64,000 nt of DNA from Pectobacterium brasiliense (GTDB taxonomy: Bacteria > Pseudomonadota > Gammaproteobacteria > Enterobacterales > Enterobacteriaceae), in NCBI RefSeq assembly GCF_016950255.1, contig NZ_JACGFN010000001.1, forward strand, positions 1,550,001 to 1,614,000. The letters run 5' to 3'. Every line of letters begins with the position of its first letter. The first letter of the stretch is position 1. This document shows, piece by piece, positions 3,219 to 20,539 of the stretch. The notes below the pieces were generated by a model that was given only the letters and a program-made list of their open reading frames with translations, was not told the DNA's origin and did no database searches. The position numbers and the translations under genes were made by a program.

Positions 3219-3460
3219 GCAACAATTCCTCCACAAACTCCCGCTTATTCCCCTTTGACTGACTCGTCACACCACATTATTTGTAACCATGAAATAACAA
3301 AACCGTTATGCATTACAATATATAGCGAATAAAAAATATACCTCTTTATAGGTGTTATGGGGGTTTAAATACTTAAATCTTGATTTTGCGCAAAGCCCAC
3401 AATTTATGTGTTGTTAAATTGCTCGCAACAAAAATGACACATAATTACACAGGGAAACTA

Positions 3461-6400
3461 ATGCAACTGAATAGAAGAGGTTTCTTTAAAGTTTGCGCGG
3501 GGGGGATGGCTGGAACCACTCTCGCGGTATTGGGCTTTACACCCACGGAAGCAATGGCATCAGTACGTCAATATAAGCTGTTACGGGCAAAAGAGACGCG
3601 TAACAACTGTACCTACTGTTCAGTGGGTTGTGGTGTGCTCATGTATAGCCTGGGCGATGGTGCCAAAAACGCGAAGCCTTCCATTTTTCATATCGAAGGT
3701 GATGCGGATCACCCAGTCAGCCGCGGCTCCCTTTGCCCAAAAGGTGCGGGTCTGGTTGACTATATCCACAGTGAAAATCGCCTGCTCTATCCTGAATACC
3801 GCGCGCCGGGTTCAGACAAATGGCAACGAATCAGCTGGGACGACGCGATTGAACGCATTGCACGCCTGATGAAAGCTGACCGTGATGCCAACTTCGAACG
3901 CACCAACGCCAAGGGCGAAACCGTCAACCGCTGGCTGACGACCGGTATGCTGTGCTCTTCTGCTGCCAGCAACGAAACCGGTATTCTCGACCAGAAATTT
4001 GCCCGGGCACTCGGCATGGTTGCTATCGACTGCCAGGCTCGCTTGTGCCACGGACCAACCGTTGCTGCACTAGCGCCGACATTCGGCCGTGGCGCAATGA
4101 CTAACAACTGGGTTGATATCAAAAACGCCAACGTCATCATCGTCATGGGCGGCAATCCAGCAGAAGCGCACCCAGTCGGTTTCAAATGGGCCGTTGAAGC
4201 GAAAACGCACAACAATGCGAAGCTGATTGTGGTCGATCCGCGTTTTAACCGCTCCGCTGCCGTTGCCGATCTCTACGCACCGATTCGCGCAGGTTCAGAT
4301 GCCGCCTTCCTGTTAGGTATCGTTAACTACCTTATTACGAACGATAAAATTCATCGCGAATACGTGGTGTCTTACACTAATGCCAGCCTGATCGTACGTG
4401 ATGACTTTAGCTTCGACGAAGGCTTGTTCAGCGGCTACGACGAACAGAAACGTCAATATGACAAATCCAGCTGGCAGTATGAGTTAGATGAGTCCGGTTT
4501 CGCCAAACGCGACAACACGCTGTCCCATCCGCGCTGCGTCTGGAATCTGCTGAAAAAACACGTCTCCCGCTATACGCTGGAAATGGTGACATCCCTGTGC
4601 GGTACCTCAGCCAAAGATTACGAAGAGATTTGCCGTACGCTGGCTGAAACCTGTGTACCGAATAAAACTGCAACCTTCATGTATGCTCTGGGTTGGACGC
4701 ACCACACCAACGGCGCGCAAATTATCCGCTCCGCTGGCATGATCCAGCTTCTGTTAGGGAATATTGGTATGGCAGGCGGTGGCATCAACGCCCTGCGCGG
4801 CCACTCCAACATTCAGGGGTATACCGATCTGGGTCTGCTGTCGTTAAATCTGCCGGGTTATATGCCACTGCCGTCAGAAAAACAGCCGGATCTGAATACC
4901 TATCTGAACCAAATCACACCGACCGCCGCACTGCCCGATCAGGTTAACTATTGGAAAAACACGCCAAAATTCTTTATCAGCATGATGAAGAGCTTCTACG
5001 GCGATCACGCGCAGGCCGCAAATAACTGGGGTTATGACTGGTTGCCGAAGTGGGATCGTAGCTACGACGTCATGGTGCAAACTGAGCTGATGGTGGAAGG
5101 CAAAATGAACGGCTACATCGTTCAGGGCTTTAACCCCGTTGCGGCGTTCTCCAACAAGAACAAAGCGACCGAAGCGCTCTCCAAGCTCAAGTACATGGTC
5201 ATCATCGATCCTTTGGTCACGGAAACGTCCACATTCTGGCAGAACTATGGCGAATTCAATGACGTGGATACGAAGTCCATTCAGACTGAAGTCTTCCGTC
5301 TGCCGTCTTCCTGCTTTGCCGAAGAGAATGGCTCTATCGCCAACTCCGGCCGCTGGCTGCAATGGCACTGGGCGGCGGCTGAGCCACCAGGAGAAGCCCG
5401 TCACGACGGTAAAATCCTCGGTAAGCTGCTGATGCGCCTGCGTGAACTGTATAACGAAGAAGGCGGTGCTTACTCGGATCCGTTGATGAACATCAACTGG
5501 AACTACAAAGACCCAGAAGATCCGCATCCAGAAGAGATCGCCCGCGAAGGCAACGGCATGGCGCTGGCGGATATCTACGACGACAGCGGCAAACTGATCC
5601 TGAAAAAAGGCCAGCAGATCGCTGATTTCTCACAGTTGCGTGATGACGGTACTACGTCCAGTTTCTGCTGGATTTACGCCGGGAGTTGGACAGAAGCGGG
5701 TAACCAGATGGATAAGCGCGACAACGCCGATGCCGGTCTGGGCTGTACGCCGAACTGGTCATGGTGTTGGCCGCAAAACCGCCGCATTCTCTACAACCGA
5801 GCCTCTGCCGACCTGCAAGGGAAACCGTGGGACAGCAAGCGTAAATTGCTGGAATGGACCGGCCAGAAATGGCAAGGCATTGATGTACCTGACTTCGCCG
5901 CAACCGTACCACCGGGCAAAGACACCGGGCCGTTCATCATGCTGCCGGAAGGTCTGGCACGTCTGTTCTCCGTGGACAAACTGGTAGACGGGCCGTTCCC
6001 TGAACACTACGAGCCGATCGAATCACCTATTGGCACCAACCCGCTGCATCCGTCAGTGATTTCCAGCCCGGTTGCGCGTTTGTTTGCGCGTGATGCGAAA
6101 ACCATGGGCACCGCGAAGGACTTCCCTTATGTGGCGACCACGTACTCAATTACTGAATTGTTCCGCCACTGGACAAAACACGCACGTCTGAACGCAATTG
6201 TGCAGCCGGAACAGTTTGTTGAGATCGGTGAAAATCTGGCGAAGAGCAAAGGCATTAAAGCAGGCGATGAAGTCAAAGTCTCCTGTCAGCGTGGCTACAT
6301 CAAAGCCAAAGCGGTGGTAACGAAGCGTATCAAAACGCTGCAAATTGCCGGACGCAGCGTGGAAACCGTTGGTATTCCCTGCCACTGGGGCTTTGAGGGA

Positions 6401-6508
6401 ACCACGCGTAAAGGGTTCCTGGCTAACACACTCACCCCGAGCGTCGGCGACGCTAATTCACAAACGCCTGAGTACAAAGCGTTTTTGGTTAATGTAGAGA
6501 AGGCGTAA
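3461..6508 (+). CDS. fdoG: Respiratory formate dehydrogenase, catalytic alpha subunit (Cys variant)
   Basis: Oxidises formate to CO2 in the periplasm using a bis-MGD molybdenum (or tungsten) centre and passes electrons to the Fe-S beta subunit. The start at 3461 gives 1015 residues, the length of E. coli FdnG/FdoG, beginning with a twin-arginine signal (NRRGFFK); an upstream in-frame ATG would bury this signal. The 4Fe-4S site is C50, C53, C57 and C92. The active-site segment reads ARLCHGPTV with codon TGC (4046-4048) at residue 196, exactly where E. coli FdnG/FdoG has selenocysteine. No in-frame TGA is present, so no selenium is needed. Overall sequence is closer to FdoG than FdnG as I recall them, but the fdn/fdo assignment is inference. 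fdoH follows after 12 bp. Confidence 0.95.
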   Translation: MQLNRRGFFKVCAGGMAGTTLAVLGFTPTEAMASVRQYKLLRAKETRNNCTYCSVGCGVLMYSLGDGAKNAKPSIFHIEGDADHPVSRGSLCPKGAGLVDYIHSENRLLYPEYRAPGSDKWQRISWDDAIERIARLMKADRDANFERTNAKGETVNRWLTTGMLCSSAASNETGILDQKFARALGMVAIDCQARLCHGPTVAALAPTFGRGAMTNNWVDIKNANVIIVMGGNPAEAHPVGFKWAVEAKTHNNAKLIVVDPRFNRSAAVADLYAPIRAGSDAAFLLGIVNYLITNDKIHREYVVSYTNASLIVRDDFSFDEGLFSGYDEQKRQYDKSSWQYELDESGFAKRDNTLSHPRCVWNLLKKHVSRYTLEMVTSLCGTSAKDYEEICRTLAETCVPNKTATFMYALGWTHHTNGAQIIRSAGMIQLLLGNIGMAGGGINALRGHSNIQGYTDLGLLSLNLPGYMPLPSEKQPDLNTYLNQITPTAALPDQVNYWKNTPKFFISMMKSFYGDHAQAANNWGYDWLPKWDRSYDVMVQTELMVEGKMNGYIVQGFNPVAAFSNKNKATEALSKLKYMVIIDPLVTETSTFWQNYGEFNDVDTKSIQTEVFRLPSSCFAEENGSIANSGRWLQWHWAAAEPPGEARHDGKILGKLLMRLRELYNEEGGAYSDPLMNINWNYKDPEDPHPEEIAREGNGMALADIYDDSGKLILKKGQQIADFSQLRDDGTTSSFCWIYAGSWTEAGNQMDKRDNADAGLGCTPNWSWCWPQNRRILYNRASADLQGKPWDSKRKLLEWTGQKWQGIDVPDFAATVPPGKDTGPFIMLPEGLARLFSVDKLVDGPFPEHYEPIESPIGTNPLHPSVISSPVARLFARDAKTMGTAKDFPYVATTYSITELFRHWTKHARLNAIVQPEQFVEIGENLAKSKGIKAGDEVKVSCQRGYIKAKAVVTKRIKTLQIAGRSVETVGIPCHWGFEGTTRKGFLANTLTPSVGDANSQTPEYKAFLVNVEKA

Positions 6509-8118: not shown

Positions 8119-8342
8119 ATCCGCAGTCAGTACGAATCGTTATAACTTAAACCCAAAAGTCATAATGCTCCCCTCTTCCTCGTCTATCGCTCAACGGCTA
8201 TGATGCAGTATCATTTTTAAATAGACATCCAGACATAAAGACAGCTATAAAGTAGTGACGCAGAAAACATAACAATACTGCCATCGACACAACACACTTT
8301 CATCAACACAAGACCCCTTTATAAAACGCCATGGAGCTGATA

Positions 8343-9419
8343 ATGAAGAAATTTACGCCCGCCTTGCTTGCACTGAGCTTACTGACTGCGTTACCGGCAC
8401 TGGCTAATCAGAATGCCACCATTACTCCCGTTCCGGCCGCTATCGCCAATCATGACGGTCCGGTTCGCATCGCGGTTATCCGCAACTTGGGTTCCGACGA
8501 CAACACCACGCAGTTTGTTTCCGGCGTGCTTGAAGAAGGTAAAAAACTGGGCTTTAAGGTCAGCACCTTTCTGAGCAACGGCGATGATGCCCGTTTTCAG
8601 GATTTCGTGAATCAGGCGATTAGCCAAAAATATGATGGCATCATCCTGTCACAGGGCCGCGATCCCTACTCTACCGATTTGATTAAACGTATTGTCGACA
8701 GCGGCATTGCCGTTTCCGTGTTTGATACCGCCGTGAATGGCGAAATTCCGGGCGTGACCGTCACCCAGCAGGATGACGCCTCCCTGACTAACGAATCACT
8801 TGGCCAACTGGTGAAGGATTTCAACGGTAAAGCCAACATTATCAAACTGTGGGTTGCCGGCTTCCCGCCAATGGAGCGCCGCCAGCTCGCTTATCAACAG
8901 ATCCTGAAAGCCAACCCCGGCATCAAGGAACTCGAATCGATTGGTGCCGTGTCCTCTGACGTTCAGGGCGATACCGCTAACAAAGTCGGCGCGGTGCTGG
9001 CGAAATACCCGAAAGGCAAAATCGATGCCATCTGGGGATCGTGGGATGCCTTCAGCCAGGGCGCTTACAAAGCGTTGAAAGAAAACGGTCGGACTGAAAT
9101 CAAACTGTACAGCATCGACATCTCCAATCAGGATTTACAGCTGATGCGCGAAGCGAGCAGCCCGTGGAAAGTCAGCGTGGCTGTCGATCCTAAGCTGATC
9201 GGTAAAGTGAACCTGCGTCTGGTTGCCAACAAGATTGCTGGTGAAGCAACACCTGCAACCTATGAGTTCCGCGCTGCCGCGATTCCACAGGCGCTGTTAG
9301 CCAGCCAACCGGGTGCAGTCAACGTCGCTGGATTGGCGAAAATCATCCCAGGCTGGGGCCATACGGATGATTTTATCGCACCGTGGTTTGCTACACTGGA
9401 AGCCAAACAGGCGAAATAA
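8343..9419 (+). CDS. Periplasmic sugar-binding protein (RbsB/Peripla_BP_4 type), orphan
   Basis: A 358-residue exported protein with a clear Sec signal (MKKFTPALLALSLLTALPALA). Two alpha/beta lobes of the pentose/hexose-binding fold follow: VRIAVIRNLGSDD begins lobe one, YDGIILSQG and GIAVSVFDTA mark the ligand cleft, and DAIWGSWDAFSQGAYKAL begins the distal part. The start at 8343 is chosen over an ATG four codons earlier because the signal peptide begins there. No ABC ATPase or permease gene lies beside it; its partner 14 bp downstream is an LVIVD-repeat protein. The ligand is unknown. It may serve a transporter elsewhere or act as a sensor. Confidence 0.85.
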   Translation: MKKFTPALLALSLLTALPALANQNATITPVPAAIANHDGPVRIAVIRNLGSDDNTTQFVSGVLEEGKKLGFKVSTFLSNGDDARFQDFVNQAISQKYDGIILSQGRDPYSTDLIKRIVDSGIAVSVFDTAVNGEIPGVTVTQQDDASLTNESLGQLVKDFNGKANIIKLWVAGFPPMERRQLAYQQILKANPGIKELESIGAVSSDVQGDTANKVGAVLAKYPKGKIDAIWGSWDAFSQGAYKALKENGRTEIKLYSIDISNQDLQLMREASSPWKVSVAVDPKLIGKVNLRLVANKIAGEATPATYEFRAAAIPQALLASQPGAVNVAGLAKIIPGWGHTDDFIAPWFATLEAKQAK

Positions 9420-9433
9420 CACGGAGATAACTC

Positions 9434-10684
9434 ATGGCATCGACTCCTCTGCCCACCCCCGATTACAGCCGTAATATGCGGCTGATTGGACACAGCGATC
9501 AGGGTGGCAGACCCGACGGCGTGCAGGTGATGGTTCATCGCGGTTACGCTTACATCGGGCATATGGTTTCACAAGGCGTGTCGATTGTGGATGTGCGCGA
9601 TGCCAGAAATCCCAAACCGGCGGGGTTTATTGCTGCCCCGCCCGGCACCTGGAACATCCACCTGCAAACGCACGATGACCTGCTGCTTGTCGTCAACGCA
9701 CGCGATTTGTTTGCCGACGCCAGCTTCGCAGAGGAAAAAGTCTATTACACCCGCTCCGTCGCCGACACGGTCAGTACCAAACAGCAGGGTAAAAGTTGGA
9801 GCGCCGGATTACAGATTTTCGATATCTCAACGCCGGATAAACCGCGCGAAATCAGTTTCCTGCCGCTGGACGGCATCGGCATTCACCGCATCTGGTACGT
9901 GGGAGGGCGCTGGGCCTATGTCTCCGCGCTGCTTGATGGCTACAGCGACTACATCTTTCTGACTATCGATCTGGCCGACCCACAGCGTCCGGAAGTTGCG
10001 GGCCGCTACTGGCTACCCGGCATGCACACCGCCGGCGGAGAAACCGCAAGCTGGCCGGAAGGTAAGCGTTACGCCCTTCACCATGCCATCATCAGCGGCG
10101 ACACCGCCTATGGCAGTTGGCGTGATGGCGGGTTGACGCTGCTGGACGTGAGCGATCGCACTAATCCACAGCTCATCAGCCACCGTAACTGGAGCCCACC
10201 GTTTGGCGGCGGTACACACACGGCGCTGCCGTTGCCGGATCGCGATCTGCTGATCGTGTTGGATGAAGCGGTATTGGATAATCAGGAAGATGGCGAGAAA
10301 TTGATTTGGGTGTTCGATATTCGTGAGCCGAGCAATCCGGTGAGCATCGCCACCTTTCCGCAGCCGAAAGAGGCAGACTATGTGAAGAAAGGCGCACACT
10401 TTGGCCCACATAACCTGCATGAAAACCGGCCAGGCAGCTTCATCAGTTCGTCACTGATTTTCGCCACGTATCAAAACGCAGGGGTACGCGCTTACGACAT
10501 CAGTAACCCGTATCAGCCGAAAGAAACCGGTGCGCTGGTGCCTGCTGCGCCAGCCAAAATGATCGACAAACGCCCTGGCAGACCGCAGATTATTCAGTCC
10601 TGCGATGTGTTTGTTGATGCTGACGGCATCATCTACAGCACGGATTACAACGCCGGTTTATCGATCATCGAATACCGGGGTTAA
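9434..10684 (+). CDS. LVIVD-repeat beta-propeller protein
   Basis: A 416-residue protein built of seven degenerate blades ending in motifs such as GVSIVDVRDARNPK, GLQIFDISTPDKPR, FLTIDLADPQRPE, GLTLLDVSDRTNPQ, IWVFDIREPSNPV, VRAYDISNPYQPK and LSIIEY. This is typical of LVIVD repeats and predicts a seven-bladed propeller. Conserved histidines between blades (for example YALHHA and HFGPHNLHENRP) could bind metal or ligand. No signal peptide is visible, so it is probably cytoplasmic. It follows the sugar-binding gene after 14 bp and is likely cotranscribed. Function is not known. Confidence 0.82.
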   Translation: MASTPLPTPDYSRNMRLIGHSDQGGRPDGVQVMVHRGYAYIGHMVSQGVSIVDVRDARNPKPAGFIAAPPGTWNIHLQTHDDLLLVVNARDLFADASFAEEKVYYTRSVADTVSTKQQGKSWSAGLQIFDISTPDKPREISFLPLDGIGIHRIWYVGGRWAYVSALLDGYSDYIFLTIDLADPQRPEVAGRYWLPGMHTAGGETASWPEGKRYALHHAIISGDTAYGSWRDGGLTLLDVSDRTNPQLISHRNWSPPFGGGTHTALPLPDRDLLIVLDEAVLDNQEDGEKLIWVFDIREPSNPVSIATFPQPKEADYVKKGAHFGPHNLHENRPGSFISSSLIFATYQNAGVRAYDISNPYQPKETGALVPAAPAKMIDKRPGRPQIIQSCDVFVDADGIIYSTDYNAGLSIIEYRG

Positions 10685-13691: not shown

Positions 13692-14657
13692 TTACAGCGC
13701 GCTACCCAGCACCTGCCGCAGGTACGCCCCCGCCCCCATTAATCCCGGCTGCTCATGGGTAATCAAATACACAGGGATATCCTGCATATAGCCTTTGAAC
13801 CGCCCTTTGTCTTCAAAAGCCGCCCGAAAACCGGAAGCTTTAAAGAACTCAAGAAAGCGCGGAACGATGCCGCCAGCAATATACACGCCACCAAATGTGC
13901 CTAAATTTAACGCCAGATTGCCGCCGAAGCGTCCCATGATGACGCAGAAGAGTGACAGCGCGCGGCGACAGTCCACATCCGTATTGTCGACGGCACGTTC
14001 GGTAATATCTTTCGGCTCCAACGCCTCCGGCGTGCGGTCATCAGACAGCACCACGGCACGGTAGATATTTACCAGCCCCTGTCCGGAGAGTATGCGTTCA
14101 GCAGAAACATGCCCGAGCGACTGGCGCAAAACTGAGAGAATTTTGTCTTCTTCATCGCTATTCGGCGCGAAGTCCACATGACCGCCCTCACCCGGCAGGC
14201 TAATCCATTGATTAGCGGCATGTACCAAATGAGCGACGCCTAACCCCGTGCCTGCGCCATACACAGCAATGGGTTTACCTGGCACAGGCTCCCCGCCGCC
14301 AAATTGGAGTAAATCCGCGTTAGTCATCACCGGTACCGCCATAGAAACGGCGGTAAAATCGTTGATAACCTCAAAATGGCGCAGACCCAGACTCGCTTTC
14401 ATTTCTGCGATGGAAAATGCCCAGGTGTGGTTAGTCATTGCCACCCAATCACCGGTAATCGGGCAGGCAATCGCGATACAAGCATCCTGTACCGTGACCT
14501 GTCGCGAATCGAGATAATCACGAATGGCCCCTTCCAGCGAAGGAAAATCTAGCCCGGAATAGGTCTCGGTTTGCGATAATTCCCCCGTTGTGGCATCACA
14601 CAATGCCAAACGCGTATTGGTGCCACCGACATCGCCCACTAACACAAAGTGCGTCAT
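13692..14657 (-). CDS. glk: Glucokinase
   Basis: Phosphorylates intracellular glucose with ATP. The start [14 protein letters not shown] at 14657 gives 321 residues, equal to E. coli Glk; a start seven codons earlier is rejected. The ATP-binding phosphate-1 motif [12 protein letters not shown] is at residues 8-19, and glucose-contact segments such as [25 protein letters not shown] and PGEGGHVDF are present. It is divergent from an MFS sugar permease, and the shared 187-bp gap contains two LacI-type operators. In E. coli glk lies at another locus, so its place here fits a role in using glucose released by this block. Confidence 0.95.
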
Positions 14658-14784
14658 TCTTCTTTTCCCCTCAAGCAAAGCAGATTCCCGATCATTGCGC
14701 GAAAACAGCCAGCTACGCTATGGCTATATAACTTTCTAGTGATAAGGATCTCATTTATGGCTAAAAGCTGCGGTTAAGTTAAAA

Positions 14785-14796
14785 GTAATCGATTAC
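14785..14796. promoter_or_regulatory. LacI-family operator 1 (glk / MFS intergenic)
   Basis: Perfect 12-bp palindrome GTAATCGATTAC with the central CG pair usual for LacI-family operators. It is identical to two other sites in the window. It lies 48 bp before the permease ATG, 30 bp from operator 2 centre to centre (about three helical turns). Confidence 0.82.
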
Positions 14797-14814
14797 ATTT
14801 GAAAAACACAAATT

Positions 14815-14826
14815 GTAATCGATTAC
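14815..14826. promoter_or_regulatory. LacI-family operator 2 (glk / MFS intergenic)
   Basis: Second copy of GTAATCGATTAC, 18 bp before the MFS permease start codon and so well placed to block transcription. Control of glk by the same pair is possible but less certain, because glk begins more than 125 bp away. Confidence 0.82.
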
Positions 14827-14844
14827 TTTTAAGAGGGATACCAC

Positions 14845-16089
14845 ATGGTTTCTTCATCTGAAAACACAGCTACCAAATCGTTACAGCCGGCCTTCGTGGT
14901 TCCCAGACTGTCACTCATGATGTTTTTAGAGTTCTTCATCTGGGGCTCATGGTCTGTCACCCTGGGCCTGGTTATGACACAGCACAACCTGGCCGCCATG
15001 ATTGGCGACGCCTTCTCTGCCGGACCTATCGCCTCAATCCTGTCGCCGTTTGTACTGGGCATGGTGGTTGACCGCTTCTTCCCCTCACAAAAAGTCATGG
15101 CGCTGCTGCACCTGATCGGCGCGGTCATCCTGTGGTTTGTGCCTACCGCGTTAATCAACGAAGACGGCTCACAGCTGCTAATCCTGCTGTTCGCCTACAC
15201 GCTGTGCTTTATGCCAACGCTGGCGTTAACCAACAACATCGCGTTCCATAATCTGACTAACAGTGAGAAGAGCTTCCCGGTTGTGCGAGTCTTCGGCACC
15301 ATCGGTTGGATCGTCGCCGGTGTCTGCATCGGGACGGCGGGCATCTCCGCAAGCGTCAATATCTTCTACGTCGCGGCCGCTTGCTCTGCCATTCTGGCTG
15401 CCTACAGCCTGACGCTGCCGCATACCCCAGCGCCGGCAAAAGGCTTGCCGCTGGCAGTGCGCGATCTGTTCTGTGCTGATGCATTTGCGCTGCTGAAGAA
15501 AGGCCACTTTCTGGTCTTTGCCATCTGCGCCATGCTGATCTCTATTCCACTGGGTACCTACTACGCTTACACCGCATCCTTCCTGAGCAATGCAGGTATC
15601 AGCGACGTCAGCACCGCCATGTCGTTTGGTCAGATGTCCGAAATCGTCTTCATGCTGATCATTCCGCTGCTGTTTAGAAAGCTGGGCGTGAAATACATGC
15701 TGTTCATCGGCATGTTGGCGTGGTTCGTACGCTATGCCCTCTTCGCGATGGGCGTGAATGAAGAAACACGCTGGTTGCTCTACATCGGTATCCTGCTGCA
15801 CGGTATCTGCTACGACTTCTTCTTCGTCATTGGCTTCATCTACACCGACCGCATCGCGGGAGAGAAAATCAAAGGGCAGGCACAAAGTATGGTGGTCCTG
15901 TTTACCTACGGTATCGGCATGCTGCTGGGCTCGCAGGTTTCCGGTGCACTCTATAACCGTCTCTTCAACAACGGTACGTTAAACGCGCCTGAAATCTGGG
16001 CGACCTTCTGGTGGATCCCTGCGGTTGCCGCAGCCATCATCGCCATCATTTTCCTCTTCTCCTTCAAATATAAAGAAGAGCGGGCCTAA
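14845..16089 (+). CDS. MFS permease of the NupG-like (nucleoside/sugar:H+ symporter) family
   Basis: A 414-residue membrane protein with about twelve hydrophobic helices. The opening (RLSLMMFLEFFIWGSWSVTLG) and the internal segment VRVFGTIGWI resemble the NupG/XapB/YegT branch of the major facilitator superfamily. Gene context (isomerase, dehydrogenase, LacI regulator, glucokinase) argues for a sugar or glycoside rather than a nucleoside substrate; this is inference. The start at 14845 follows an AAGAGGG ribosome site. Two operators lie directly upstream. A 131-bp gap with a strong hairpin separates it from the next gene. Confidence 0.85.
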   Translation: MVSSSENTATKSLQPAFVVPRLSLMMFLEFFIWGSWSVTLGLVMTQHNLAAMIGDAFSAGPIASILSPFVLGMVVDRFFPSQKVMALLHLIGAVILWFVPTALINEDGSQLLILLFAYTLCFMPTLALTNNIAFHNLTNSEKSFPVVRVFGTIGWIVAGVCIGTAGISASVNIFYVAAACSAILAAYSLTLPHTPAPAKGLPLAVRDLFCADAFALLKKGHFLVFAICAMLISIPLGTYYAYTASFLSNAGISDVSTAMSFGQMSEIVFMLIIPLLFRKLGVKYMLFIGMLAWFVRYALFAMGVNEETRWLLYIGILLHGICYDFFFVIGFIYTDRIAGEKIKGQAQSMVVLFTYGIGMLLGSQVSGALYNRLFNNGTLNAPEIWATFWWIPAVAAAIIAIIFLFSFKYKEERA

Positions 16090-16120
16090 TTATTTAAGAC
16101 AGATTATTTAACGAGAAAAT

Positions 16121-16150
16121 GGGATGAGGTCGCCTATGGCACCTCATCCC
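16121..16150 (+). other. Perfect intergenic hairpin within the glycoside operon
   Basis: Ten-base inverted repeat GGGATGAGGT / ACCTCATCCC enclosing CGCCTATGGC, whose GCC/GGC can extend the stem with one bulge. There is no T run, so it is probably a transcript-stabilising or attenuating structure rather than a terminator. Confidence 0.6.
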
Positions 16151-16219
16151 ACTGCATTCTCCGCTATCGCAATCGTGCAACGGTATTCATGACCACACCC
16201 GTTGCCAAAGGAGGTAATA

Positions 16220-17290
16220 ATGAAGACGTTAAAAGGACCGGGTATTTTTCTCGCCCAGTATATTGGCGATCAGGCTCCCTTTAACACGCTGGAAAATCTG
16301 GCGCAATGGGCAGCCGAATTAGGCTTTAAAGCGCTACAAATCCCCTGTAATCACCCGCACATTTTCGATCTGTCTACGGCCGCCGACAGCCAAACTTACT
16401 GTGATGATGTGAAAGGACTGTTGGCGCAGCATGGGCTGACCATCAGCGAACTGTCGACCCATCTGGAAGGACAGCTCGTTGCTGTCCACCCTGCGTATGA
16501 CGATGCATTTGACGATTTCGCACCACCGGCTTACCGCCGCAATCCGCAGGCTCGCCAAGAGTGGGCTATTTCGGCAATCAAGCAGGCAGCAAAGGCCTCT
16601 TCACGCTTAGGACTAAACGCCCACGCGACGTTTTCCGGTGCGCTGGCCTGGCCCTATTTTTACCCCTGGCCGCCGCGTAAAGAGGTCATGATTCAGGAAG
16701 CCTTTAAAGAACTCGGTCGCCTGTGGACGCCGATCCTCGACTGCTTTGACGAGCACGGCGTGGATGTGTGCTACGAGCTTCACCCAGGAGAAGATTTACA
16801 CGACGGCGTAACCTTTGAACGCTTCCTTGATGTCGTCAATCATCACCCACGCGCCAACATTCTTTACGATCCTAGCCATATGCATTTGCAGCAGATGGAC
16901 TACCTCGGCTTTATCGATCGCTATCATGCACGAATCAAAGCGTTCCATGTGAAAGATGCGGAATTTAACACGTCGAGCAAAAGCGGCGTCTACGGCGGCT
17001 ATCAGTCATGGGCTGAACGCGCCGGGCGCTTCCGCTCACCGGGAGATGGTCAGATCGATTTCGGCGGCATCTTCAGCAAACTGGCCCAATACGACTACGA
17101 CGGCTGGGCGGTGTTGGAATGGGAATGCTGTCTGAAAGACAGCAATTGCGGCGCGAAAGAAGGAGCGGCGTTCATCAACCGCCACATTATTCCCGTCGCA
17201 GGACGCTCTTTTGACGATTTCGCCGCAACCAGCGACGATCGTCCGTTAGTCAGAAAAATGTTGGGATTAAAAGAGGAGAACGCAGAATGA
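16220..17290 (+). CDS. Sugar phosphate isomerase/epimerase family TIM-barrel enzyme
   Basis: A 356-residue AP_endonuc_2/xylose-isomerase-like TIM barrel without a signal peptide, so cytoplasmic. Likely divalent-metal ligands are seen in CYELHPGEDLH, YDPSHMHLQQ, FHVKDAEF and VLEWECC (Glu, Asp/His, His and Glu in the usual order). The start at 16220 has the strong ribosome site AAAGGAGGT and is preferred to an ATG six codons earlier. It overlaps the next gene by 4 bases (ATGA), so the two are translationally coupled. Members of this fold act as keto-sugar epimerases, isomerases or lyases. The substrate is unknown. Confidence 0.85.
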   Translation: MKTLKGPGIFLAQYIGDQAPFNTLENLAQWAAELGFKALQIPCNHPHIFDLSTAADSQTYCDDVKGLLAQHGLTISELSTHLEGQLVAVHPAYDDAFDDFAPPAYRRNPQARQEWAISAIKQAAKASSRLGLNAHATFSGALAWPYFYPWPPRKEVMIQEAFKELGRLWTPILDCFDEHGVDVCYELHPGEDLHDGVTFERFLDVVNHHPRANILYDPSHMHLQQMDYLGFIDRYHARIKAFHVKDAEFNTSSKSGVYGGYQSWAERAGRFRSPGDGQIDFGGIFSKLAQYDYDGWAVLEWECCLKDSNCGAKEGAAFINRHIIPVAGRSFDDFAATSDDRPLVRKMLGLKEENAE

Positions 17291-18438
17291 TTCGCGTTGG
17301 CATTATTGGTTCCGGTTTTATTGGCCCAGCACATATTGAGGCGATTCGTCGCCTTGGCTTCGTTGAGGTAGTGGCACTGGCGGAAAATTCGCTCGATCTG
17401 GCACAGCAGAAAGCGCGTCAGCTCAACATTCCTCATGCCTACGGCAGCGTCGCTGATTTGCTAAATCATCCCGGTATTGATGCGATCCATAACTGCACGC
17501 CGAACCATCTTCATGCGGCGATCAATAAACAGATTATTCAGGCAGGCAAGCACGTCTTTTCGGAAAAGCCGCTGTGTATGACCAGCGAGGAAGCGCGTGA
17601 ACTGGTGGCGCTGGCGGAAGAAAAAGGTGTTGTTCACGGCGTCAGCTTTGTCTATCGCCAATTTGGCATGGTGCAGCAGGCTGCCAGCATGATTAAGTGT
17701 CAGGAAATCGGACGCGTCTTTGCGGTACACGGCGGCTATCTGCAAGACTGGATGCTGCGCGACACCGACTATAACTGGCGTGTTGAACCGGAGTACGGCG
17801 GCGTTTCCCGCGCGGTGGCCGACATCGGCTCGCACTGGTGCGACACGGTACAGTTTATTTCCGGCCGGAAAATTGTCGACGTCTTCGCCGATTTAGCCAT
17901 CGTCCATCCGATCCGCAAATCCAATCGGAACGGTGCGGCTACGTTTTCGTCATCTGATGCACCGCCAGAGTACGACGATAAACCGGTCAAGACTGAAGAC
18001 TACGCGACCGTGTTACTGCGCTTTGAAGACGGTAGTCGCGGATCCTTTACCGTTTCTCAGGTCAGCGCTGGCCGAAAAAATCGCCTGACGTTTGAAGTGA
18101 ATGGCAGTGAACAGTCGCTGGCGTGGGATCAGGAAACGCCGCAACAGCTGTGGATCGGTCATCGTGATAAACCGAATCAGGTGTTGTCGGACGATCCTGG
18201 ATTACTGAACCCGGAAGCCGCCGCTGCGGTCCACTTCCCCGGTGGGCATATCGAAGGCTGGCCGGATGCGTTCAAGAACATGATGGCGAGCTTTTATACC
18301 TATCTGCGTGACGGCAAACAGCCGGGCGTCGATCCATGCAACTTTGCCACCTTCTACGACGGTGCGAACATCATGTTCATCATTGACGCCATCGTGCAAA
18401 GCCATCAGCAACAAACGTGGGTGAAGGTCGCCAATTAA
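17287..18438 (+). CDS. Gfo/Idh/MocA family NAD(P)-dependent sugar oxidoreductase
   Basis: A 383-residue two-domain dehydrogenase. The Rossmann nucleotide motif GIIGSGFIG starts at residue 5 and the catalytic-type lysine is in FSEKPLCMT near residue 96. The C-terminal alpha/beta sheet domain includes EYGGVSRAVADIGSHWCDTVQF, typical of the family. The coding start overlaps the isomerase stop by four bases. Coupling with a TIM-barrel isomerase parallels YcjS/YcjR and C-glycoside-cleaving pairs, where the dehydrogenase makes a 3-keto-glycoside; that reaction is inferred for this gene, not shown. Confidence 0.87.
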   Translation: MIRVGIIGSGFIGPAHIEAIRRLGFVEVVALAENSLDLAQQKARQLNIPHAYGSVADLLNHPGIDAIHNCTPNHLHAAINKQIIQAGKHVFSEKPLCMTSEEARELVALAEEKGVVHGVSFVYRQFGMVQQAASMIKCQEIGRVFAVHGGYLQDWMLRDTDYNWRVEPEYGGVSRAVADIGSHWCDTVQFISGRKIVDVFADLAIVHPIRKSNRNGAATFSSSDAPPEYDDKPVKTEDYATVLLRFEDGSRGSFTVSQVSAGRKNRLTFEVNGSEQSLAWDQETPQQLWIGHRDKPNQVLSDDPGLLNPEAAAAVHFPGGHIEGWPDAFKNMMASFYTYLRDGKQPGVDPCNFATFYDGANIMFIIDAIVQSHQQQTWVKVAN

Positions 18439-18469
18439 GGCATCAGACCGTTCATTCTCCCACGGTATT

Positions 18470-18498
18470 CATCCCGCAGGTGCGACGCCTGCGGGATG
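18470..18498 (+). terminator. Hairpin after the permease-isomerase-dehydrogenase genes
   Basis: A perfect 11-bp stem (CATCCCGCAGG / CCTGCGGGATG) with a 7-nt loop lies 31 bp after the dehydrogenase stop. It lacks a T run, so termination may be Rho-dependent or partial and the regulator may be partly cotranscribed. Confidence 0.5.
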
Positions 18499-18562
18499 CA
18501 GCCAGAGATATTTATGGTAATCTGCTCAGCCAAGCATAAGTAGCGTGAGTGCCTTCTGAATT

Positions 18563-19543
18563 ATGTCGATTCAAAAAATAGCACGGATAGCTGGAGTCTC
18601 GGTTGCCACCGTTTCACGGGTGTTGAACAACATTGATAGCGTGAAGCCGCAAAATCGGGAACGTGTTCTCAATGCGATAAAAAGCAGCAATTATCAGCCG
18701 AACTTACTGGCCCGGCAGCTACGTACCGCGCGCAGCCAGATGTTATTGGTCATGGTTTCCAACATTGCCAACCCTTTCTGTGCCGATGTGGTGAAAGGCA
18801 TTGAGGCGGAAGCGGAAGAAAACGGCTACCGCATTCTTCTGTGCAATTCAGGTGCCGATATCGTTCGCGCCCACTCCAGCCTGCAACTGCTGTCCGGTAA
18901 AATGGTCGATGGCGTGATCACCATGGACGCCATTTCAACGCTGTCTGCGCTCCAGGATATGATTGGCACCGCGCCTTGGGTGCAGTGCGCCGAGCATGAC
19001 GATACGTCCGCTATTTCATCCGTCGGGATTGATAACGCCGAAGCGTCCCGTTTCGTGATTAATCACTTTATTGGCAAAGGCCGCCGCCGTATCGCCATGA
19101 TTAACCACGACATGAATTACCTCTACGCCCAGCAGCGAGAGAAAGGCTATCGCGACGTTATCGCGGAGAATGGGTTTGATTACGGCAAAGTCGAATACGC
19201 CAGTACGCTGAGCTATTCAGGCGGAAAAGCCGCAATGAACGCGCTGCTTAACGATCCGGATCGGCCAGATGCCGTCTTTGTGGTGTCCGATACGTTGGCT
19301 GCGGGCGCACTGTCGGCAATCTGTGAGGCGGGATTGAGCGCGCCGCAGGATATTGCGGTGATCGGTTTTGACGGTTCAGAGCTGGGTTACATCACCTCGC
19401 CTCAGCTCAGCACTATTCAGCAGCCGTCCGCACATATCGGCAGAGAGGCCGTGAAATTGCTATTACAACAAATCGACCAGCCTGCCAGCGAAACAGAAAA
19501 GCGCTTACTGGAATGGACGTTTGTCGAACGGGCATCCAGCTAA
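18563..19543 (+). CDS. LacI-family transcriptional regulator of the glycoside block
   Basis: A 326-residue repressor-type protein. The N-terminal helix-turn-helix (IQKIARIAGVSVATVSRVLN) and hinge helix (NYQPNLLARQLRT) are followed by a periplasmic-binding-protein-like effector domain with DAVFVVSDTLAAGAL and IAVIGFDGSELGYITSPQ. It most likely binds the GTAATCGATTAC sites at 14785, 14815 and 20528, which flank the block and have the CG-centred form of LacI-family operators. No copy of the site was seen before this gene itself. The inducer is unknown. Confidence 0.9.
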   Translation: MSIQKIARIAGVSVATVSRVLNNIDSVKPQNRERVLNAIKSSNYQPNLLARQLRTARSQMLLVMVSNIANPFCADVVKGIEAEAEENGYRILLCNSGADIVRAHSSLQLLSGKMVDGVITMDAISTLSALQDMIGTAPWVQCAEHDDTSAISSVGIDNAEASRFVINHFIGKGRRRIAMINHDMNYLYAQQREKGYRDVIAENGFDYGKVEYASTLSYSGGKAAMNALLNDPDRPDAVFVVSDTLAAGALSAICEAGLSAPQDIAVIGFDGSELGYITSPQLSTIQQPSAHIGREAVKLLLQQIDQPASETEKRLLEWTFVERASS

Positions 19544-19580
19544 CTGACTCAGAATATCCGGTTCACCATCCCACATTTTG

Positions 19581-19608
19581 CAACCTGCGGCTCGCTGACC
19601 GCAGGTTG
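19581..19608. terminator. Hairpin between convergent regulator and isomerase genes
   Basis: Perfect 10-bp inverted repeat CAACCTGCGG / CCGCAGGTTG with an 8-nt loop. It lies in the 76-bp gap between two converging genes, so it probably acts in both directions, though no long T run is present. Confidence 0.55.
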
Positions 19609-19619
19609 ATAGCGCTTCC

Positions 19620-20483
19620 TTACTTACTTTTTATCTTACTCAGCTTTTCATACAGCGACTGGTAAGCCGCGGAAACAATGGCCTGTGGATCTTTCGGTAA
19701 GTCATGTTCAGCAACAAACCACTGAGCACCAGCCTTAGACGCAGCAGGGAGAATCTCTTCCCACGCCAAAATGCCCTCACCCGGTGGGGCAAAGTTCATT
19801 TCATCATCGCGGATGCCGATTGATGTATTGTCTTTCGCGTGAATTGAATAAATGCGCCCTTTGTACTGGCGCAGGAGACGCACAGGATCCTGTCCTCCGC
19901 GCGATACCCAGGCGACATCCATTTCCAGCATCAGATTCTCTGGTTCTGCCGCATCCATCATGATTTCCAGCGCGGTTTTACCGCGATACTTCTTCATCTC
20001 GAAATTATGGTTGTGATAAGCCAGCTTCATGCCCTGCTTCTTCAGCTCACGTCCAAGATCGTTCATTTCCACACCAAAGCGCTTCCAACCCTCTGCGCTA
20101 TCCGGTCGGTCTTCTACATTTAGCCACGGCACGATAATCATGCTGTTGCCGATGGCTTTGTTAAAGGCTACAACCTCAGCCATATTGCTTTTCAATTCGC
20201 CAAACTGAACATGCGCAGCAATGGCTTTCAACCGATACTTGCCTAATAACCCCTTCATTTCTGACGCACTAATGTCATGCGTCCCCACCAGTTCAACCGC
20301 CTTAAACCCGGCGTCTCGCGCCATGGAGAATTGCTCGTCGAGCGTATTCAAGCTGCGCAGCGTATACATCTGCAACGCTATTTTTTGGTTTTCTGCTGGA
20401 CGCTCGGCAAGCGCCAAACCCGATGAAACTATCAACAATAGCGGTATAGCGAATGCACGGCGCAACAACGTCATACAAGGCAT
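19620..20483 (-). CDS. Exported sugar phosphate isomerase/epimerase-like TIM-barrel protein
   Basis: A 287-residue protein with a Sec-type signal (TLLRRAFAIPLLLIVSSGLALA) ahead of a xylose-isomerase-like TIM barrel. Putative metal ligands lie in KAVELVG, AYHNHNF, LEMDVAW, YSIHAKD and FVAEHD. A periplasmic location is unusual for an enzyme of phosphorylated sugars, so the substrate is more likely a free glycoside or keto-glycoside. The start at 20483 has an AGGAG site eight bases ahead; MTLLRR three codons later is possible. A GTAATCGATTAC operator 45 bp upstream ties it to the permease operon. Confidence 0.83.
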   Translation of the reverse strand: MPCMTLLRRAFAIPLLLIVSSGLALAERPAENQKIALQMYTLRSLNTLDEQFSMARDAGFKAVELVGTHDISASEMKGLLGKYRLKAIAAHVQFGELKSNMAEVVAFNKAIGNSMIIVPWLNVEDRPDSAEGWKRFGVEMNDLGRELKKQGMKLAYHNHNFEMKKYRGKTALEIMMDAAEPENLMLEMDVAWVSRGGQDPVRLLRQYKGRIYSIHAKDNTSIGIRDDEMNFAPPGEGILAWEEILPAASKAGAQWFVAEHDLPKDPQAIVSAAYQSLYEKLSKIKSK

Positions 20484-20527
20484 GTCCTTCTCCTATTTTT
20501 ATCCCGTAGCACAGGTGAAAACAAAAA

Positions 20528-20539
20528 GTAATCGATTAC
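20528..20539. promoter_or_regulatory. LacI-family operator 3 (upstream of exported isomerase)
   Basis: Third identical GTAATCGATTAC palindrome, with A/T-rich flanks like those of the other two. It lies upstream of the minus-strand gene starting at 20483 and marks the far end of the regulated block. Confidence 0.82.

Follow-up and report, generated by a model that had tools for sequence, protein, structure and literature searches.

The stretch of Pectobacterium brasiliense DNA considered here (contig NZ_JACGFN010000001.1, positions 1,550,001 to 1,614,000; 64,000 nucleotides, referred to as the window) harbors a five-gene cassette that may serve the utilization of 3-keto-β-glucosides. Adjacent to the glucokinase gene glk (13692–14663, minus strand; NF001414, 612 bits) lies a gene for a major facilitator superfamily (MFS) permease of the NupG/YegT (nucleoside:H+ symporter) family (14845–16089, plus strand; PF03825, 341 bits), followed on the same strand by genes for a TIM-barrel protein that is a predicted 2-hydroxy-3-keto-glucal hydratase (HYD; 16220–17290; match to 8ro4, PF01261), a Gfo/Idh/MocA oxidoreductase proposed to act as 3-keto-glucose reductase (GFO; 17287–18438; PF01408/PF22725/PF02894), and a LacI-family regulator (18563–19543; PF00356 and PF13377, under every curated cut-off listed). 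Convergent to these four co-oriented genes is that of a second TIM barrel, a predicted exported 3-keto-O-glucoside β-eliminase (OGE; 19620–20483, minus strand; match to 8bvk). All six genes, which the original prediction had described as one block, were recovered at the same positions, and the translational coupling that it had suggested for HYD and GFO is supported by a four-base ATGA shared by the two genes (17287–17290).

The two TIM barrels had been regarded as isomerases, possibly acting in an epimerization, while homology instead points to a lyase and a hydratase. OGE aligns with 8bvk at 259.6 bits, with 121 of 250 residues identical (48%). According to the describing paper, 8BVK is the solved structure of AtOGE, the 3-keto-O-glucoside β-eliminase of Agrobacterium tumefaciens, with His134 as catalytic residue, His132, Asp163 and His189 as metal ligands, Glu233 as a weak ligand, and Glu39, His66 and Glu161 as residues of an alternative site (PMC10628242). 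E39, H66, H132, H134, E161, H189 and E233 are all kept in the OGE of the window, and only two of 41 OGE homologues deviate at these seven residues, both at E39; the ligand D163 is kept in 42 of 42 sequences, 8bvk included. The closest named OGE loci are those of P. carotovorum DSM 30168 (99%) and P. versatile KC01 (98%). Similarly, HYD matches 8ro4, a structure deposited as 2-hydroxy-3-keto-glucal hydratase, at 553.7 bits, with 229 of 350 identical residues (65%). As judged from these sequence comparisons, both the β-eliminase and the hydratase component of an A. tumefaciens-type pathway appear to be present in the cassette.

The N-terminus of OGE displays the classical leader pattern of a charged start and a hydrophobic core ending in ALA, from which a Sec signal peptide of 26 residues is predicted (20406–20483, minus strand; cleavage point placed by eye). 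A hydrophobic leader was likewise found in 37 of 42 OGE-family open reading frames (ORFs) in a hydropathy comparison, on which, rather than on a trained predictor, these leader calls rest. This cluster of 42 contains fragments and does not include the protein of locus L089; its five leaderless members are three fragments without a start and two distant sequences from metagenome-assembled genomes. AtOGE, in contrast, is devoid of a leader, since it is only 259 amino acids long and its alignment with the OGE of the window begins at residue 8. Hence, OGE is predicted to be exported to the periplasm.

GFO is 69% identical to its counterpart in a Klebsiella set, 39% identical to the Gfo of the complete Xanthomonas sacchari set and 27–30% identical to three alphaproteobacterial Gfo proteins. 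Among the NCBIfam models, that of levoglucosan dehydrogenase fits GFO best (173 of 650 bits), accompanied by weak glycoside 3-dehydrogenase matches, and the best match of GFO in the PDB is 6a3f (146 bits), which is deposited as ‘putative dehydrogenase’ and which we take to be a levoglucosan dehydrogenase. A leader is not apparent in the sequence, and GFO occupies the place that the Gfo reductase has in the A. tumefaciens operon. Because OGE is predicted to be exported and GFO lacks a leader, GFO is best read, by analogy, as the terminal 3-keto-glucose reductase and not as the initial oxidant, the role assigned to the dehydrogenase before. A glucoside oxidase was found neither in the locus nor in the genome (see below). 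The permease scores 334.8 bits against the TIGR00889 nucleoside permease model, whose cut-off is 446.1, and 259 bits against the YegT structure 8zoj, and it is 44% identical to the permease of the X. sacchari set. It was thus prudent of the original prediction to withhold the name NupG, as it did the name IolE for the TIM barrels, which reach 76 and 66.7 bits of the 290 required. As substrate of the permease, 2-hydroxy-3-keto-glucal or 3-keto-glucose is proposed; the X. sacchari permease, which is part of a complete set, may have the same role.

The conservation of the cassette was assessed in 28 named loci (L068–L095; 26 from Enterobacterales and two from Pseudomonas). These were fetched by means of OGE, whose presence is therefore given by construction, and they are not independent, since several originate from one and the same genome or from sister genomes (L048 and L068, for instance, or L080, L082 and L095). 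The five-gene set, i.e. OGE, permease, HYD, GFO and LacI above the score limits, was found together in 20 of them, comprising six from Pectobacterium (L073 with split genes) and 14 labelled Pantoea, Erwinia, Winslowiella, Rahnella, Klebsiella, Mangrovibacter or Enterobacter. The two Pseudomonas loci contain weaker versions of the cassette genes, and the remaining six loci carry OGE without permease, HYD or GFO within approximately 10 kb on each side, although a LacI gene is present in one of them (L078). No sixth gene family occurs in more than six of the 14 non-Pectobacterium sets, and the extra families that do recur there comprise ABC ATPases, LysR regulators and SDR proteins or reflect shared synteny; hence, no hidden oxidase is seen to travel with the cassette.

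Within the genus, HYD is encoded in 17 of 25 sampled Pectobacterium genomes, while OGE is full-length in 13, in two pieces in two, a remnant in one and undetected in nine. Of 73 relatives sampled beyond the genus, nine gave a HYD hit. One genome without OGE (G013) and another with merely the last 84 OGE codons (G008) keep full-length matches to the other four genes, and two more (G033 and G047) possess the four genes together with the palindromes described below and give no OGE hit genome-wide. At the level of individual loci, OGE is in two pieces in L054 (from G016), truncated in L203 (from G008) and absent from L202 (from G013), the rest being approximately full-length. In L051 and L073, both from PL152, the splitting of several of the cassette genes is suggestive of sequencing error.

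A link between the genes of the cassette is provided by the 12-bp palindrome GTAATCGATTAC, an operator candidate without strand that occurs in exact form twice before the permease gene (14785–14796 and 14815–14826, i.e. 60 and 30 bp before its start) and once before the OGE gene (20528–20539, 56 bp before its start). With up to two mismatches, the window contains seven such sites, a number reached in none of 100 shuffles (mean 1.88), and the three exact sites of this locus are the only ones in the 4.88-Mb genome. Two exact copies precede the permease gene in all 20 five-gene sets from Enterobacterales, and all 26 Enterobacterales loci have one or more copies ahead of OGE (two in L094), including the six with isolated OGE (L078, L083, L086, L088, L092 and L093). 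For L073, the site before OGE was scored relative to the second fragment of the split gene, and the more distant loci L096–L100 were excluded from these counts. Neither of the two Pseudomonas loci, the LacI proteins of which are more distant (179–181 bits), contains the palindrome, nor is an exact copy present in eight stretches around glk from HYD-free Pectobacterium genomes. An identical 12-base sequence is found at the core of ATTGTAATCGATTACATT, a cre site of Staphylococcus aureus CcpA (PMC9598941), which likewise is a LacI-family protein. The palindrome ties the exported OGE to the permease operon independently of adjacency and thereby supports, with three exact sites, what had only been asserted before, namely control by one LacI regulator. 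As far as can be read from the DNA, the five genes are co-located and predicted to be co-regulated through one type of palindrome, to which the LacI protein probably binds, with a sugar of the pathway as the likely inducer.

Relatives of cassette genes also occur on plasmids. In a plasmid collection, HYD relatives are present in 320 records, with Phaeobacter (58), Pantoea (54) and Pseudosulfitobacter (46) as the largest groups. One Pantoea agglomerans plasmid encodes permease, HYD and LacI without an adjacent GFO or OGE, and two plasmids of Enterobacter (L139) and Klebsiella (L140) carry an OGE relative beside genes for LysR, metallophosphoesterase, MFS and SDR proteins, without HYD; an exact GTAATCGATTAC precedes this relative in L139, and none was found in L140. 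A blastn search of 20,395 E. coli records with the region spanning permease, HYD and GFO on a Klebsiella plasmid gave no match at 1e-20, a result that holds on the DNA level only.

The membership of glk, which had been counted among the genes of the set, could not be upheld. Its product is the sole strong glucokinase match in the genome (the next PF02685 hit reaches 42 bits, above the cut-off of 22.1). The gene stands alone between ybhA and modC in five of the eight Pectobacterium genomes without HYD; in the other three it is absent from this position, with no match in the genome at 1e-40. Conversely, in none of the 14 named non-Pectobacterium five-gene sets was glk detected within the retrieved sequence (at most 10 kb to either side of OGE). 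Its retention between ybhA and modC without the cassette indicates that glk belongs to the resident genes and that the cassette was gained or lost next to it. Glk is a resident neighbor that likely performs the last step of the pathway.

A component that was sought in vain is a C3 oxidase of the A. tumefaciens type, which consists of the GMC protein GlycDH and a PF13618 small subunit. PF13618 was found in none of the 25 Pectobacterium genomes, and the genome of the window has none. This genome encodes one GMC protein beside a betB-like gene, presumably a BetA-like enzyme with a BetB-like neighbor. The X. sacchari GMC oxidase was used to search 17 of the 25 Pectobacterium genomes (the HYD carriers), five other relatives, 22 named-locus genomes and three plasmid records. 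No hit at 1e-20 was obtained in the 17 HYD-carrying Pectobacterium genomes, while three records with complete sets matched at 76–100%.

The reading that we favor, with a probability of roughly 0.6, is that of a LacI-controlled cassette for 3-keto-β-glucosides that are oxidized elsewhere, cleaved in the periplasm and rebuilt into glucose inside the cell. OGE, secreted to the periplasm, would strip the aglycone from 3-keto-O-glucosides via Mn-dependent β-elimination to form 2-hydroxy-3-keto-glucal, which (or 3-keto-glucose) could then be imported by the NupG-like permease. Next, HYD may hydrate 2-hydroxy-3-keto-glucal to 3-keto-glucose, before GFO reduces the latter to glucose at the expense of NAD(P)H and the resident Glk affords glucose 6-phosphate. 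The LacI protein would sit on the three palindromes until released by a sugar of the pathway. That the permease takes up the product rather than the glucoside is suggested by the fact that HYD acts after the lyase and that the lyase is the member lost. With a permease that imports the product, genomes that keep four genes without an intact OGE (G013, G008, G033 and G047) are to be expected. The 3-keto-glucosides themselves are most likely supplied by other microorganisms of the decaying plant, given that no GlycDH-type oxidase was found. Of the 3-keto-glycoside route that had been predicted, the type of route, its end in glucose and the single LacI regulator hence stand, in contrast to the isomerase assignments, the role of the dehydrogenase and the inclusion of Glk.

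Several observations weigh against this reading. Beyond the genus, OGE was not found in any of the 73 relatives sampled, and the set is patchy. At up to one mismatch, GTAATCGATTAC has eight sites in the genome compared to ten for the reversed control, so that the exact sites alone are informative. PF13618 is present in four of the nine HYD-carrying relatives outside Pectobacterium (G033, G044, G048 and G056), one of which (G044) is also the only one of five other relatives with a hit to the GMC query, at 29%. Furthermore, GMC proteins with 25–43% identity among the matches listed occur in 15 of 22 other OGE-bearing genomes, the remaining seven being without a hit. The absence of the oxidase is therefore a result for Pectobacterium and not a general one, and an oxidase of a class outside those searched could exist. 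In addition, the identity of GFO to its Gfo counterparts in the four more remote sets of the comparison is only 27–39%, and no NupG-family transporter is known to carry a keto-glycal. Finally, the direction of the GFO reaction is deduced by analogy to the A. tumefaciens study, in which Bitter et al. (2023) term their own evidence for the hydratase AtHYD preliminary (PMC10628242).

Among the alternatives, a periplasmic 3-oxidase of Pectobacterium's own, unrelated to GlycDH and encoded elsewhere in the genome, would complete the pathway within a single organism. The sets of A. tumefaciens, X. sacchari, Ketogulonicigenium and Paracoccus all include an oxidase, and the searches covered the GlycDH-type classes only. 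Yet, the sole GMC protein is BetA-like, PF13618 is missing, and no further exact palindrome exists in the genome that could connect such a gene to the regulon. Five one-mismatch sites are found elsewhere; an inspection of the ORF listing by eye, without a family search, revealed no recognizable sugar dehydrogenase within approximately 1.5 kb of them. Likewise, no obvious leader was seen by eye on the other seven Gfo/Idh/MocA proteins of the genome. We consider an own oxidase of this kind unlikely.

The earlier interpretation, according to which the glucoside is imported, oxidized by GFO in the cytoplasm and then cleaved by a TIM barrel, with Glk phosphorylating the released glucose, draws on the ability of Gfo/Idh/MocA enzymes to oxidize glycosides at C3 and on levoglucosan dehydrogenase as the best model of GFO. 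It conflicts with the export leader on the cleaving enzyme and its lack on GFO, as a lyase in the periplasm is difficult to combine with an oxidant in the cytosol. Moreover, AtHYD, to which the cytosolic TIM barrel is related, was inactive on 3-keto-phlorizin (PMC10628242). This sequence of events is improbable.

Catabolism of inositol, a nucleoside or another cyclitol that merely resembles a 3-keto pathway is suggested by weak hits to IolE, IolG and nucleoside permease models and is very improbable, since all of these fall short of the cut-offs (as given above for IolE and TIGR00889; IolG, 105.3 of 355), 8ro4 and 8bvk are far closer matches, and the genome possesses a separate iol-type cluster with an IolG above the cut-off (452 versus 355 bits). 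A C-glycoside substrate was set aside together with these readings; AtOGE is specific for O-glucosides (PMC10628242). The iol-type cluster additionally encodes a Gfo/Idh/MocA protein (L009, 12191–13330) that scores 363 bits against the levoglucosan dehydrogenase model (cut-off 650).

Some further features of the window deserve mention. Between the permease and HYD genes lies a strong inverted repeat without a T run (TGGGATGAGGT...ACCTCATCCCA, 16120–16151), which recurs exactly in 11 of 206 loci, with several of these belonging to the same genomes; the whole gap (16090–16219) has a folding z of −3.71. A scan for promoters and terminators did not exceed shuffles (3 versus 6.2; 7 versus 7.4), and the base-composition profile, inspected by eye, displays no jump at the cassette. 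Upstream, positions 3380–6508 presumably encode the large subunit of a formate dehydrogenase, with Cys in the motif ARLCHGPT and genes for a ferredoxin-like subunit and cytochrome b downstream; the formate dehydrogenase of E. coli has selenocysteine at the position of this Cys. Next come the genes of a solitary sugar-binding protein of the periplasm and of a protein with LVIVD repeats (8331–10684). The LVIVD gene is present in seven of eight cassette-free Pectobacterium stretches and is therefore not a member of the cassette.

Going beyond the locus, a tentative generalization, for which we would claim somewhat less than even odds, is that plant-associated Enterobacterales possess a dedicated 3-keto-glycal scavenging regulon. 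In these bacteria, C3 oxidation would be left to neighbors, only the lyase would be secreted, and a NupG-family permease would have been turned into a transporter of 2-hydroxy-3-keto-glucal, with permease, HYD, GFO and LacI as the core and the exported lyase as an optional and sometimes separately encoded addition. If true, a recently described sugar pathway would be divided between species, with the oxidized glucoside as a shared good. Soft-rot and epiphytic Enterobacterales would gain carbon in this way, while plant aglycones would be released extracellularly. In addition, a branch of the NupG family would gain a transported substrate, and an inducer-operator pair would be at hand for finding the sugar that is sensed.

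Compared with known systems, distant TIM-barrel relatives (68–78 bits) are found in 8tcd, 8tcs and 8tct, which we take to belong to work on a Bacteroides 3-keto-glycoside set whose enzymes and operon differ from those of the cassette. The C-glycoside deglycosylation of gut bacteria (PuCGE, DgpA) shares the logic of 3-keto β-elimination and the metal site, while no β-subunit gene was seen in the cassette, for which no β-subunit model was searched. Closer is a plasmid-borne set of X. sacchari (L138, 5349–15341), which looks complete and additionally contains a TIM barrel. It resembles the cassette in its LacI gene and in HYD (69%), Gfo (39%), the permease and a leadered OGE (46%), and differs by its own GMC oxidase with PF13618 subunit, a cytochrome c, a PF06439 3-keto-disaccharide hydrolase and the lack of an exact GTAATCGATTAC. 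PF13618 lies beside the GMC oxidase in X. sacchari and, by annotation, also in Paracoccus and Ketogulonicigenium.

The closest described counterpart is the A. tumefaciens operon GlycDH-AtOGE-AtHYD-Gfo, which is reportedly also the subject of work by Kastner et al. in 2024. The gene set had originally not been recognized as a named pathway; it corresponds to the non-hydrolytic route of oxidation, elimination, hydration and reduction in which GlycDH oxidizes the glucoside, AtOGE eliminates, AtHYD hydrates and Gfo reduces 3-keto-glucose to glucose (PMC10628242), and which was restated as a four-step route in a 2026 paper from the same group (PMC13273386). A description of the present cassette was not found in the open literature searched, with subscription papers outside its reach and a search for Erwinia and Pantoea uninformative. 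Both systems have a homologous lyase, a homologous hydratase, a Gfo-family enzyme and the same proposed chemistry. They differ in GlycDH and its PF13618 subunit, which are part of the A. tumefaciens operon and were not found in Pectobacterium, in the leader that AtOGE lacks, and in the NupG-like permease and the LacI gene with its own palindrome, which are features of the Pectobacterium cassette. Hence, the pathway as such has been described and is not new; as far as the literature searched shows, the combination of an exported lyase and a palindrome of its own, with no oxidase found in Pectobacterium, represents a new form of it.

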